Source: Haladaptatus sp. ZSTT2 | Lineage (GTDB): Archaea > Halobacteriota > Halobacteria > Halobacteriales > Halococcaceae | Direction: 5' to 3' | Length of the DNA stretch: 64,000 nt | Assembly (NCBI RefSeq): GCF_037081775.1 | Contig: NZ_JBAMHQ010000001.1 | Location: forward strand, 1,984,001-2,048,000 | Shown: positions 1,331 through 5,985 of the stretch, piece after piece | How positions within the stretch are numbered: the stretch's first letter is position 1 | How the letters are laid out: each line of letters starts with the position of its first letter | The notes under the pieces: model-generated | The model's database searches: none | The model's input: the letters and a program-made list of their open reading frames with translations, nothing else | Told to the model about the DNA's origin: nothing | Made by a program: the position numbers and the translations under genes

Positions 1331-2092
1331 ATGGATGTCCGTGTGCCAGCAGGCGTGTCCCAAGACCCGTTTCTCGGGGCACAGTACCTCTTTGAGACCG
1401 AATACGACCTCGACTGGCCAGTCATCGTCACGGTTCGCGACAACCCCGACGAGCGCACGTGGACGGCACACTACGTCGAACACCACTTGCTCAACATTTC
1501 GAGACAGGCCGCATCGAGCGCGATGGCCCGCGAGCTCGTGCTCCACGAGTACGCGCACATGTACCGCTACGAGCAGGGCCACCCCTCCCACCTCCAATCG
1601 ACCGCAGAAGCGCTCGTCCTCGCGTTCACCGGGCGACAGGTCGAGCAGCGAAAGCTCACCCACTGCTATCAGATTGCGAATCACATGAAGGACATCTACG
1701 CCGACGATATCACTCTCGACGTGTACCCGGCGACGAAACTCCTCGCGTTCTTAGAAGCCAGCCTCGCAACCGCCGTCGCAAACCGGCCTATCGACCGGCC
1801 CGGAGCCGTCCGCCACACCCCGGCCGCAGACCCGGATATCACCGCCGTAAACGCCGCGTTCGCACTCGGCCTCGCCGAGCGCCACGACCTCATCGAACCA
1901 GACCACCGCCTCTACGAACTCGCCGCCATCGCGGCCGCAGACGCACCGAACGTCAATTTAGATTCGTTCAAGCGCCGATTCCGCACGCTCTCACGCGACA
2001 CGAATACGAGCGAGTATCGCAAGGCGCTCGTGGATATCACGAGAAAATATGCCATGCACACCGGCGGTGCGGGCGACGCGGCAGCCGACTGA
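1331..2092 (+). CDS. Conserved haloarchaeal protein with HExxH motif (DUF5781-like, putative zinc peptidase fold)
   Basis: A 253-residue soluble protein, divergent from EF-2. Residues 72-76 read HEYAH inside a helix-like stretch (ELVLHEYAHMYRYEQGH), the HExxH signature of zinc metallopeptidases; the following GHPSH could supply another ligand. There is no signal peptide or membrane segment, so a cytoplasmic role is expected. I chose MDVRVPAGV at 1331 rather than the in-frame start at 1316 because conserved-looking sequence begins there. From memory the family next to haloarchaeal fusA is called DUF5781, but I could not check this. The acidic composition and codon use match the neighbours. Proteolytic activity is inferred from one motif only. 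Confidence 0.8.
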   Translation: MDVRVPAGVSQDPFLGAQYLFETEYDLDWPVIVTVRDNPDERTWTAHYVEHHLLNISRQAASSAMARELVLHEYAHMYRYEQGHPSHLQSTAEALVLAFTGRQVEQRKLTHCYQIANHMKDIYADDITLDVYPATKLLAFLEASLATAVANRPIDRPGAVRHTPAADPDITAVNAAFALGLAERHDLIEPDHRLYELAAIAAADAPNVNLDSFKRRFRTLSRDTNTSEYRKALVDITRKYAMHTGGAGDAAAD

Positions 2093-2094
2093 GC

Positions 2095-3522
2095 CTACGC
2101 CAGCCCGACGGTCTGCAAGGCGACGTCGAGTAACGACCCATCAGACCCATCGCTGTCGGTGGTGTTCGTCGTATTGTCGTCGAGCACCGTCCCCGTGGTA
2201 TCGGTGGTGTTCTCGACGAGGTCTGTCGTTTCGGTGGTCGTCTCATCGACCGTTTCGACGGTATCGTCAACCGTTTCCTCGGTGGTGTTTGTCGTCTCAT
2301 CGACTGTCGTAGTCGTCTCTTCGGTTGTACTCTCGACTGTTTCGGCGGTGTCGTCAACGGTCTCCTCGGTGGTGTTGGTGGTGTTTTCGACTGTTTCAGT
2401 CGTCTCTTCGACGGTCCCTGACGTGTCAGTGACCGTTTCGTCAACCGTATCGGTAGTATCGTTCACCGTCTCAGTCGTGTCGTTCACCGTCTCATCAACG
2501 GTCTCTGAGGTGTCGTTCGTCGCCCCGCCGGTGGTGTCGTCAACGAGGTCTGTTGTGTCGTCTACCGTCTCATCCACGGTATCCGTCGTGTCGTCGGTGG
2601 TGTTGTCTACTGTGTCCGTCGCGTCGCCAGTCGTGTCTCCGACGGTGTCGGTGGTGTTGTCCACCGTCTCCGTTGAATCATTGACTGTATCGTCTATCGT
2701 GCCGGTCGTGTTGTCCACACCTTCCTCTATCGTCTCGGTTGGATTCTCGATGACGTCGTCCACGGTGTCGGTGGTGTCATCAACAGAGTCTGTGACGTTG
2801 TCGGTGGTCTCATCGACCGTATCAACCGGGTTGTCGAGTGTTTCGTTTACGGTGTCGGTGGTGTTGTTCACCACGTCTGGCACGTCCTCCGTCGTGTCGT
2901 CCACCGTCTCGGTGGCGTCATCCGTCGTCTCGTCCACCACATCGGTCGTCTCGTTCAGGTCGGGCGTGGGGCTTTCCGAGTTCGAGGAGTTGTTGAGGAG
3001 GTCTGGTGGCAGCTCCAAGCCGCCGGGTTCGGGGGCGTCTGCTGCCGCATCGGGGCCGGCTATCAGCTCCATGTTCTGTGAGTCGAGCGAGTCAGCAGAC
3101 AGGTAGTACGCCTCGACGACGGTCGGGGAGTCTTGATCGAGCGGGATGCACGCGTGCAGCGTGGCGAGCGTGTTCACCAGCTGGTTCTCGCCGTTGGTGT
3201 ACATGACGAGCGACTGGTTTACCCGACTCTCTTCCATCTCAATTCGCTTCTGGATGGAACTGGCGTTCATGTAGATGGTCACGTCCTTCATCGTCGCCTT
3301 CGTCACCGTGACCTTGTTCACGTCAGGTGCTTGTTTCTCTGCGCAGATGAGACCGCCATTCTCGTCTAAGTCGATGGCACCGGTTTCGACGGTGAACGAT
3401 TCGCGGTCCTCGACTTCTTCGGGGGCCGCGCTCGCCACGTCGGTTGCGAGAAAGCCGACGCCGACACTCGTTACGACGAGCGACGCGGCGACGACTGCCA
3501 GAACGCTACGCACTGGCCTCAC
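2095..3522 (-). CDS. Secreted Thr/Asp/Val-repeat protein, third gene of DUF6230-DUF6114 operon
   Basis: A protein of about 475 residues starting at a GTG inside the end of the DUF6114 gene; a second GTG at 3513 would give an 8-nt overlap, and either start implies translational coupling. A signal peptide (RSVLAVVAASLVVTSVGVGF) is followed by a globular part of about 150 residues containing a cysteine pair (LICAEK, LHACIPL). A Pro/Asn-rich linker follows, then about 265 residues of degenerate TVDDTTDTV-like repeats rich in D, E, T and V. The repeat tail holds at least 15 N-x-S/T sequons, so heavy surface glycosylation is plausible. It ends in a short hydrophobic segment (LLDVALQTVGLA), not a PGF-CTERM anchor. 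Function is unknown; a stalk or adhesin-like surface role is inference. Confidence 0.75.
   Translation of the reverse strand: MRPVRSVLAVVAASLVVTSVGVGFLATDVASAAPEEVEDRESFTVETGAIDLDENGGLICAEKQAPDVNKVTVTKATMKDVTIYMNASSIQKRIEMEESRVNQSLVMYTNGENQLVNTLATLHACIPLDQDSPTVVEAYYLSADSLDSQNMELIAGPDAAADAPEPGGLELPPDLLNNSSNSESPTPDLNETTDVVDETTDDATETVDDTTEDVPDVVNNTTDTVNETLDNPVDTVDETTDNVTDSVDDTTDTVDDVIENPTETIEEGVDNTTGTIDDTVNDSTETVDNTTDTVGDTTGDATDTVDNTTDDTTDTVDETVDDTTDLVDDTTGGATNDTSETVDETVNDTTETVNDTTDTVDETVTDTSGTVEETTETVENTTNTTEETVDDTAETVESTTEETTTTVDETTNTTEETVDDTVETVDETTTETTDLVENTTDTTGTVLDDNTTNTTDSDGSDGSLLDVALQTVGLA
2160..2961 (-). repeat. Degenerate coding repeat tract (TVDDTTDTV-type units)
   Basis: About 800 bp of imperfect short repeats inside the secreted-protein gene. 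Each unit encodes roughly 7-11 residues built from T, V, D, E and N. Units vary at the DNA level (different Thr and Val codons), so the tract is an old, diverged repeat rather than a fresh expansion. The reverse strand is open by chance because of the composition. Confidence 0.85.
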
Positions 3523-3952
3523 CGGCGCTTGTGTCGTCGCCTGTTTTGCGCTTGCGTTCCCACGCAACACAGAGATTCCCGCCGATGATGCCGATGAGCA
3601 TGCCGATGAGGAGGCCACCGAGCGCGCCCATGAGTGAGAGAATCGAGAGCACCACGCCCGCCACGCCGAAGATGGTCGCGTGTTCCGGCATGGCGAGTGC
3701 GCCCACGCCCGTAAGGAAAACGAATGTGGCGAACACTAGCCCGATGATGGTGAACGTCCCACCGATGAAGATGAGTTCGCCCGCGAACTGCAGCGGGACG
3801 TAGCCGATGATGAGGCCGGCGAGGAGGAGCAACACGCCACCGAGGAACGGTCGCTTCACTCGCCACGCGGTAAACTGGTTGTGTCGCCGTCTGAGGGGAG
3901 CTATTCCCGGAATCATGGTGGTGTTGGTCTGCTCAGACGCCATGGGTCTCAT
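3506..3952 (-). CDS. DUF6114-like integral membrane protein
   Basis: A 148-residue protein with about four hydrophobic segments (for example FLGGVLLLLAGLIIGYVPL and ATIFGVAGVVLSILSLMGAL) and small cytoplasmic ends. The start ATG overlaps the stop of the upstream DUF6230 gene as ATGA, and its own end overlaps the next gene, so all three genes are read as one coupled unit. The W-R-x-x-RP-F-L-G-G-V opening and overall size fit DUF6114, a family I recall beside DUF6230 in Streptomyces genomes. No catalytic motif is visible. It may be a membrane partner that anchors or exports the two secreted neighbours; that role is inferred from context only. Confidence 0.8.
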   Translation of the reverse strand: MRPMASEQTNTTMIPGIAPLRRRHNQFTAWRVKRPFLGGVLLLLAGLIIGYVPLQFAGELIFIGGTFTIIGLVFATFVFLTGVGALAMPEHATIFGVAGVVLSILSLMGALGGLLIGMLIGIIGGNLCVAWERKRKTGDDTSAGEASA

Positions 3953-4602
3953 TCTCCGTCGCCGCTGGTTTCGTCGTACTGTCCGTCGCCGTCCGCGTCG
4001 TACTGGATGTCGAGTTCCAGCCCGGGCAGACTGATGGTGTTGGTCGCCAGATAGTGGGTGTTAATCTTGGCGTTTTTCAGCACCTGGGCAGGGCCGTCGC
4101 TGTCGATGCTGACCGTCCGTCCCTCGATGTCTTCGGTCGCAGATCCCGACTTGATGTCGAACTTTCTGGTCGGATCGTCGGAGTCGTGTTCATCGATGAG
4201 CTGGTGGTTGAACGTCGCCTGCTCGGCTTGGATGTTGCTCACCTTGATGATTTGCTGATCTGCTTCGACCGTCTCACTAGAGGTCATCACGATGCGCGCG
4301 TTCCCGCTGAGGCCGGGTATCGAATCGACGTCGAGTTCTTTGATGAGTTTCATCCCGTCGATTTCGACCCCTTTCTGCTCGACGACCGCCATGGGGTAGG
4401 CCCCTTGCTCGCTTGTGTCGTCGGAGCCGGGGTAGATAACGGCTGAATCGGCTCGAATCTCGTCTGCTTGAATCGTAAACCCGCCGATGCCTGCGAGCGG
4501 CGCGGCGTAGGCCGTTCCCGTGGACATTACGAGAACGCCCACGAGCAGGAGGGTTCCGAACGATGCGCTCATTCCTTTCGCCAGGAGTGCTTTTCTGTAC
4601 AT
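3949..4602 (-). CDS. DUF6230-like secreted protein, first gene of the operon
   Basis: A 217-residue protein beginning MYRKALLAKGMSASFGTLLL, a signal peptide ending near AYAAPLAG. The mature part is a beta-rich acidic domain with repeated short strands (for example VSNIQAEQATFNHQL, KNAKINTHYLATNTISLPGL) and an Asp-rich C-terminus (DADGDGQYDE) that could bind calcium. The start was set at 4602; the upstream in-frame extension lacks sense as a signal sequence. Size, secretion and pairing with a DUF6114 membrane protein match the actinobacterial DUF6230/DUF6114 pair. Molecular function is unknown. The lipid- or surface-binding idea sometimes attached to this family is not supported by anything visible here. 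Confidence 0.8.
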   Translation of the reverse strand: MYRKALLAKGMSASFGTLLLVGVLVMSTGTAYAAPLAGIGGFTIQADEIRADSAVIYPGSDDTSEQGAYPMAVVEQKGVEIDGMKLIKELDVDSIPGLSGNARIVMTSSETVEADQQIIKVSNIQAEQATFNHQLIDEHDSDDPTRKFDIKSGSATEDIEGRTVSIDSDGPAQVLKNAKINTHYLATNTISLPGLELDIQYDADGDGQYDETSGDGE

Positions 4603-4853
4603 GGGTATCACTGAGGATGACGACGGGTGTGGCGGGGCACGCGTCGAGTGACTATCCCTACTGTTGGGAACCCGCGCGTGACCTGTCGTCACATACCACG
4701 TGCAAGGCCAGAACTCCATGTCACAGTTTCCCCGGGATAACCCGGGCTTTTATGATAAATTGTGTGGAATAGAAACTTTACACTTCTACTATTAATTGAA
4801 AAACTAGTATTTTACTCGACCTGTCCGGTTTTCATGCACGTACCCTCGGTGCC
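4603..4853. other. Divergent intergenic region upstream of the DUF6230 operon
   Basis: No gene is visible here. The part near 4740-4815 is clearly AT-rich against the surrounding high-GC DNA and contains several TATA-like stretches (for example TTTATGATAAATTG), so it probably carries the promoter of the leftward DUF6230 operon. No tRNA or conserved RNA structure is recognised. Confidence 0.6.
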
Positions 4854-4869
4854 TATAAACACCCGGGTG
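4854..4869 (+). promoter_or_regulatory. TATA box with CACCCG extension for the 4914 gene
   Basis: TATAAACACCCGGGTG starts 60 nt before the ATG at 4914. The first 12 bases recur, on the other strand, 61 nt before the start codon of the convergent gene ending at 5448. Identical sequence and identical spacing make this a likely shared promoter with an extra regulatory half-site. Confidence 0.6.
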
Positions 4870-4913
4870 CAGACTGCACGACGTTTTTCACACGGTCGGT
4901 CGAACTGCGTGCC

Positions 4914-5441
4914 ATGACAGAGACTCGCACGCTCGCCGTCGATATCACCGGCGAACAGGTAGAAGCCGCCGTTGCCGGTGGCCTGTTCGGCGCGTTTCAA
5001 GGCGGACTGCTTCTCCAGCTCTGGAATCCGGATGCCATCCGCGAGATTGGCGCAACCGTGGGGATGGCGTCACTGAACGGTGGCTGGCTGGCGCTGTTTG
5101 GCTACGGCGTTTTATTCGGTGTTCCCTTCACCGCGGCTGTCTCCGGGTCGGCTGACACCCTCGTCACCACCTTCACCGCACTCTCGCGTCGCAACGCAGT
5201 CCTCGAAAAACTCCTCGACCCACTGTTGAGCCGCTCACCGCTCGGCGCGACGCTGTTCGCGCTCGGGCAGGGCTACGGCATCGTCGTTGGTCTTCTGTTC
5301 TGGAGTCTTTTCGTACCCGGCTGGCTCGCCGTCCTCGGGCACTCCACTGCAACCCCTGTTTTCGACCCCGTTGCGCTCTTCAGCTGGGCGACCTACGGCG
5401 GCATGATGGGGCTGGTGTACGGACTCATCCGCGACCACTAA
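4914..5441 (+). CDS. Haloarchaeal membrane protein of unknown function
   Basis: A 175-residue protein with about four hydrophobic segments: AAVAGGLFGAFQGGLLLQL, GGWLALFGYGVLFGVPFTAA, LGQGYGIVVGLLFWSLFVPG and ALFSWATYGGMMGLVYGLI. The N-terminus (MTETRTLAVDITGEQ) is cytoplasm-like with no signal peptide. No known transporter or enzyme motif is visible. It is convergent with the DUF5518-like membrane gene, with only 6 bp between stops, and both share the same promoter core, suggesting joint expression. I do not recognise the family. Confidence 0.75.
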   Translation: MTETRTLAVDITGEQVEAAVAGGLFGAFQGGLLLQLWNPDAIREIGATVGMASLNGGWLALFGYGVLFGVPFTAAVSGSADTLVTTFTALSRRNAVLEKLLDPLLSRSPLGATLFALGQGYGIVVGLLFWSLFVPGWLAVLGHSTATPVFDPVALFSWATYGGMMGLVYGLIRDH

Positions 5442-5447
5442 CGGGCG

Positions 5448-5924
5448 TTACCGACCGAGAACCCGGTCTACCGCCCGCCGCACCGCGGCCCCGACGAACG
5501 CACCACCCACCGATTCGAGGGTGATGAACACCAGTATCGTCAGCAAGATGAGTAGGTGTCCGGTTCCACCCATGTGGTCGTACCACGGACTCACCGGGCC
5601 AACGGCGTTCAGCAACACCGATGGCGGCTCGCTGTAGAGGCCAATGAGGCTCCCAATCAGTATGACGACGAGCCCACCCGCAAAGCCCGTGATGGCTCCG
5701 ACGACAAGCCCGTGTGCAAGGCCGCGAACCCCGCCACCTGCCGCGTAGGCTGCGACGAACCCGGCGAGCACCCCGCCGCCAACGATACCGAGAATGGGAA
5801 TGATGAGGGCGTTCAGATTGACGAGTACCCCGACCGTTGACGCGCCGACGAGCACCGGTATCGAGAACTCAACGTCGGGAAGCCCATCTCTGGAGACTGG
5901 AACGCGAGTGTCTGTCTCTGTCAT
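5448..5924 (-). CDS. DUF5518-like small membrane protein
   Basis: A 158-residue protein with a short hydrophilic N-terminus (MTETDTRVPVSRDGLP) and four hydrophobic segments rich in Gly and Ala, among them LNALIIPILGIVGGGVLAGF and GLVVGAITGFAGGLVVILIG. This Gly-rich, four-helix layout is typical of the haloarchaeal DUF5518 group. No catalytic residues stand out. The start ATG at 5922-5924 lies 61 nt from a TATA box identical in its 12-base core to that of the convergent gene at 4914. Function is unknown. Confidence 0.75.
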   Translation of the reverse strand: MTETDTRVPVSRDGLPDVEFSIPVLVGASTVGVLVNLNALIIPILGIVGGGVLAGFVAAYAAGGGVRGLAHGLVVGAITGFAGGLVVILIGSLIGLYSEPPSVLLNAVGPVSPWYDHMGGTGHLLILLTILVFITLESVGGAFVGAAVRRAVDRVLGR

Positions 5925-5971
5925 TCACCTAGGCGACTCTGTAGCTCTCAAAAAGGCTGCTGGCGGGAACA

Positions 5972-5985
5972 CACGGGTGTTTATA
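5972..5985 (-). promoter_or_regulatory. TATA box with CACCCG extension for the DUF5518-like gene
   Basis: Read on the minus strand this is TATAAACACCCGTG, 61 nt upstream of the ATG at 5924. It repeats the 12-base core TATAAACACCCG seen at 4854 before the convergent gene at nearly the same distance. Confidence 0.6.

Follow-up and report, generated by a model that had tools for sequence, protein, structure and literature searches.

A co-inherited DUF6230-DUF6114 gene module, probably of the cell envelope, in Haladaptatus and its actinobacterial counterpart

Results

Three overlapping genes in a ribosomal neighbourhood

The window is a stretch of 64,000 nucleotides from Haladaptatus sp. ZSTT2. 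On its minus strand, between positions 4602 and 2095, lie three overlapping genes that encode, in order of reading, a DUF6230 protein, a DUF6114 protein and a third protein. The original prediction described three genes overlapping end to start, by an ATGA and then by 8-17 nt at a GTG, and all the ORFs were found on the minus strand at the predicted positions. The features are as follows.

3949-4602, minus strand: DUF6230 gene, ATG at 4602, stop at 3949, 217 aa
3949-3952, minus strand: ATGA overlap of the DUF6230 stop and the DUF6114 start, 4 nt, read from the sequence
3506-3952, minus strand: DUF6114 gene, ATG at 3952 (148 aa) or ATG at 3943, end at 3506
3506-3522, minus strand: overlap of the DUF6114 end and the third-gene start, 17 nt (GTG 3522) or 8 nt (GTG 3513), from the sequence and the sister genome G002
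2095-3522, minus strand: third gene, GTG at 3522, alternative GTG at 3513

In the sister genome G002, an ATG stands at position -17 of the third gene, which makes GTG 3522 a likelier start than GTG 3513. In most haloarchaeal relatives, the genes do not overlap and are separated by 6 and about 37 nt. The module had also been placed in a ribosomal and polymerase neighbourhood, and the flanking genes bear this out: EF-2 and DUF5781 lie to one side, and to the other are uS7, uS12, a NusA-like KH protein and RNA polymerase A subunits. This location is common to close relatives only; in other families, the module is found elsewhere.

The DUF6230 and DUF6114 proteins

The first two proteins had been proposed as DUF6230 and as DUF6114, the latter a four-helix membrane protein, and both scored above the Pfam gathering cut-offs. 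The first matched PF19741 with 32.8 bits (cut-off 27.5), its residues 42-200 aligning with profile positions 5-139 of 145. The second matched PF19609 with 90.5 bits (cut-off 27.9) and covered the full profile.

The DUF6230 protein begins with a hydrophobic helix at residues 4-29, either a signal or an anchor, and continues with an all-beta domain at residues 42-202. The AlphaFold model had a mean pLDDT of 80.5 with most beta blocks above 90, so that the all-beta domain is predicted with confidence. A Foldseek search of this model against the PDB and viral models returned nothing significant, and a missing match is no proof of a new fold. The designed protein Tako8 was considered as a relative and rejected, as the phmmer match was short and weak. 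A paralogue search found that DUF6230 is single in its own genome.

For the DUF6114 protein, hydropathy and charge positions predicted four membrane helices with positive residues at either end. This suggests a topology with the N and C termini inside.

The third protein

The N terminus of the third protein is hydrophobic; it is followed by a small beta domain, in which two cysteines are conserved, and by a 322-residue tail. The two cysteines are invariant in the N-terminal domain of the archaeal third proteins. The model of this domain was weaker and beta-rich, and Foldseek matched it to no solved structure. With neither beta domain matched, the exposed domains offer no clue to a biochemical role. 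The tail contains 30% Thr, 31% Asp+Glu and 20 N-glycosylation sequons, which may be glycosylated. Several tails in related genera have acidic residues and then a short hydrophobic patch at their end. Hydrophobic residues recur in the tail at 7, 11 and 18. Because of this 7/11-residue period, the tail scored as an apolipoprotein (37.4 bits against a Pfam cut-off of 90) and as YtxH-like (23.0 bits against 37.5). We rejected both, the former as a composition artefact, together with the Pfam and NCBIfam matches to phasin, ZorA and GvpQ, which are composition artefacts as well.

Haloarchaeal surface glycoproteins, such as the S-layer glycoprotein, have Thr-rich stalks. The third protein resembles them in its acidic, Thr-rich and sequon-rich exposed tail. 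Unlike the S-layer glycoprotein, it has no S-layer domain, and no C-terminal anchor or sorting signal was seen. The view that the third gene product is a secreted and probably displayed component is supported. At another locus (L056:2303-4204), a secreted protein shares the DTTDTV-type tail and has a similar patch, DDDGLFSLG, at its C terminus, but its N-terminal domain is different; it adjoins a DUF6230-DUF6114 pair that lacks the usual third gene.

A five-gene block is missing from a same-genus genome

The module exceeds the three genes first recognized, as two adjoining membrane-protein genes belong to it, making three membrane proteins and two that are predicted to be extracellular.

4914-5441, plus strand: small membrane protein of 175 aa, polytopic, assigned to no Pfam family
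5448-5924, minus strand: small membrane protein of 158 aa resembling DUF5518, with 22.9 bits against a Pfam cut-off of 27
2079-5985, no strand: five-gene block, missing as a unit from the same-genus genome G001

The flanks of the block are 92.7% and 93.6% identical between G001 and the window (blastn). In place of 2079-5985, G001 has 174 unrelated bp, and no flanking duplication was seen. The missing stretch comprises exactly the third gene, the DUF6114 and DUF6230 genes and the genes at 4914 and 5448. Given that G002 has all five genes, and that G008 and G010, of another genus of the same family, carry the DUF6230-DUF6114 module at the same place, a loss of the block in G001 is the simpler reading. 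The block and its flanks have the same G+C content.

The 5448-5924 product is, like DUF5518 (PF17647), a small polytopic membrane protein; given its score below the cut-off, we regard it as a module-associated relative and not as a member. Strong matches to this protein (>100 bits) occurred in 28 of 391 haloarchaeal genomes. In 26 of the 28, no more than about 2 kb separates the gene from DUF6114, and it lies upstream or downstream of DUF6114 depending on the genus.

Distribution and fusions in haloarchaea

DUF6114 was found in 46 of the 391 haloarchaeal genomes and 16 of 86 genera, and the majority of haloarchaea do not have the module. DUF6230 adjoins DUF6114 in all but one of the 20 haloarchaeal regions examined at length. 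The same is true of nearly all haloarchaeal loci, the exceptions being DUF6114 copies fused to other things. The third-protein domain was present in 22 of the 391 genomes, every one of them among the 46 DUF6114 carriers, and the order DUF6230-DUF6114-third was constant in all 22. This association is far beyond chance (hypergeometric 1.5e-23, relatedness not corrected). The viral contigs held no relatives, which led us to reject a viral origin of the module, and nothing was found in the plasmids searched with the haloarchaeal DUF6114 query.

Several parts of the module occur as fusions. DUF6114 is joined to the third protein in an 839-aa product in one of the 22 genomes (L048/L197), to a DUF6230-like domain that bears a tail rich in Ser and Thr (L042/L043) and to a 4914-type domain (L012-L014, L017, L225, L230). 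One haloarchaeal genus, in which DUF6114 is fused to up to three copies of the 4914-type domain, has five to eight DUF6114 copies. Its DUF6230 proteins include some with PKD repeats, which are common in surface proteins; such repeats are borne by the DUF6230 domains of L045 and L046. In L054/L055, rows of four or five DUF6230 proteins stand next to one DUF6114. In the fusions, DUF6114 precedes a further hydrophobic segment and, after it, the exposed domain. This fits four helices with both ends inside, in which case the fifth hydrophobic segment would carry the exposed domain out.

Two side observations concern these proteins. DUF6114 proteins of one haloarchaeal genus (L045:5046-5705, L046:10915-11520 and L013:109-1908) end in repeated aromatic motifs, SEFIWGG, GFIWQ and ERFRWINESERQRW, which are perhaps interaction motifs. 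The genome G051 encodes a protein of 3342 aa whose N-terminal part is a DUF6230 domain (L229:20-10048), and its gene adjoins an acyl-CoA dehydrogenase gene.

The module in actinobacteria

DUF6230 and DUF6114 genes had been expected side by side in Streptomyces. As in the window, where the two genes share a strand, DUF6230 immediately preceded DUF6114 in 81 of 81 Streptomycetaceae loci (80 named, nearly all Streptomyces, plus L059). These pairs consist of the same two families in the same order as the window locus, and the DUF6114 protein of these 81 loci bears a secreted domain at its C terminus. A wider, phylum-wide scan detected DUF6114 in 23 of 296 actinobacterial genomes, with DUF6230 beside it in all 36 loci over the cut-off. 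A Streptomyces-like query sequence served as a lead only, and its matches were checked. Profile-profile comparison of the archaeal with the actinobacterial families gave 99.6% for DUF6114 (E 1.5e-23) and 91% for DUF6230 (E 1e-6). The proposal of a module common to Halobacteria and Actinobacteria is therefore sustained.

The same cannot be said of the proposal that the third component is haloarchaeal. Streptomyces has either a separate third secreted gene in the same place or the domain fused to DUF6114. The separate gene, found with one Streptomyces paralogue, overlaps the DUF6114 gene by 11 nt and begins there with a GTG that did not vary among the loci examined (11 of 11). Its product has a hydrophobic N terminus, then a linker rich in Pro, Ser, Thr and acidic residues (with DTVKETTDAV-like repeats in L174) and then the domain. 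As a third secreted gene occurs in both Streptomyces and haloarchaea, the three-part build is present in both domains of life.

The third domains of the two groups were compared with DUF6230 and with each other. The Streptomyces domain aligned with DUF6230 over its full length (hhalign 88-92%), and its score without the signal region was 32.9 compared with a maximum of 20.2 among 60 decoys. By profile comparison, it is a remote DUF6230 domain. The archaeal domain scored 19.6 against the DUF6230 profile with a decoy maximum of 17.4, at the edge of significance. We do not claim it as a DUF6230 homologue and handle it as unrelated until shown otherwise. Between the archaeal and the Streptomyces third domains, hhalign gave a probability of 1.3-1.5%, with no sequence homology. 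The two third components are thus alike in position and build but not in sequence family, and only that of Streptomyces is demonstrably related to DUF6230. The placement of the domain also differs: in Streptomyces it follows the low-complexity linker and forms the C end, and in archaea it precedes the tail, at the N end. No DUF5518-like or 4914-type partner, both of which are present in the window, was found among the conserved Streptomyces neighbours.

Both families are also annotated, with a 1-nt overlap, on the conjugative plasmid pRaL13f of Rhodococcus aetherivorans (NZ_CP130481.1). Unlike the window locus, this pair is plasmid-borne and has no third gene. The DUF6230-DUF6114 pair on a conjugative Rhodococcus plasmid lies near transposases (L060:11180-12168).

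The third gene is likewise absent from about half of the haloarchaeal module carriers. This patchy presence would be expected if the genes were linked and co-expressed envelope genes only, for instance for surface proteins of stress or development, whose products worked independently and formed no complex. However, several different fusions were observed, and linkage was kept despite changed gene orders. We consider it unlikely that the proteins act alone.

Acyl-CoA genes near the module and the esterase annotation

The main rival to a surface complex is lipid handling, in which DUF6230-type beta domains would bind lipids or fatty acids outside the membrane and the membrane proteins would pass these on or anchor the binder. 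In G002, a single ORF (L041:5730-8210) joins a second DUF6114 to an acyl-CoA ligase (AMP-binding, 236.6 bits), and this fusion adjoins acyl-CoA dehydrogenase and hydroxyacyl-CoA dehydrogenase genes. An acyl-CoA dehydrogenase gene lies beside the 3342-aa DUF6230 gene and near the module in 62 of the 81 Streptomyces loci. However, the ligase fusion is one case, the Streptomyces synteny represents one inherited location, and acyl-CoA genes are common in these genomes. Furthermore, Foldseek matched no lipid-binding fold, and no lipid genes adjoin the window locus. Lipid handling appears improbable to us as the role of the module. In the Streptomyces loci (L061-L140), a TetR-type regulator gene is just upstream of DUF6230, on the opposite strand, in 59 of 81, and the acyl-CoA dehydrogenase gene is located further out.

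Streptomyces genes annotated as cholesterol esterase, including SCO5420, are presumably DUF6230 genes. SCO5420, which bears this annotation, was raised almost 37-fold on Tween (PMC7494193). If these genes encode DUF6230 proteins, the induction would favour lipid handling and, along with the annotation name, the older notion that DUF6230 is a secreted (cholesterol) esterase. An esterase is contradicted by conservation: no Ser/His/Asp set is conserved, GxSxG occurs in only 12% of 162 sequences, and the best conserved DUF6230 residues are Gly, Phe, Pro and Leu. With neither a nucleophile motif nor catalytic residues conserved, we rejected membership of the serine esterases and regard an esterase function as very improbable.

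Discussion

The genes described here are kept together, come and go as a unit and in some cases are fused, which suggests one cell-surface machine. Conserved order and fusion denote functional linkage, not physical contact. We propose a co-inherited envelope module, most likely one membrane-bound surface complex, and give this proposal an even chance of being correct. In such a complex, DUF6114 would be the membrane scaffold, with four helices and both ends inside, and in archaea the DUF5518-like and 4914-type proteins would join it in the membrane. DUF6230 and the third protein would cross the membrane via their N-terminal hydrophobic segments and place their beta domains outside. The tail of the third protein may serve as a stalk or spacer and extend into the S-layer or through it; in Streptomyces, the layer concerned would be the peptidoglycan.

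We found no published function for DUF6230 or DUF6114; in the searchable papers, DUF6230 is mentioned a single time, within a table of promoters, and DUF6114 not at all. A more specific picture can be offered tentatively, and we think it possible though doubtful. Here, halophilic archaea and actinobacteria would share a surface machine made of a DUF6114 scaffold, paired DUF6230-superfamily domains and lineage-specific extra membrane subunits. The paired domains would have a beta fold that is apparently undescribed, and one of the two would sit on a long, disordered stalk.

The two families DUF6230 and DUF6114 often occur in several copies per Streptomyces genome. A module with a third secreted protein, with fusions of its parts and with a presence in archaea, whose envelope is very different, points to a general surface function. 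The compact five-gene archaeal unit, which is naturally present or absent between sister species, could serve as a test case.
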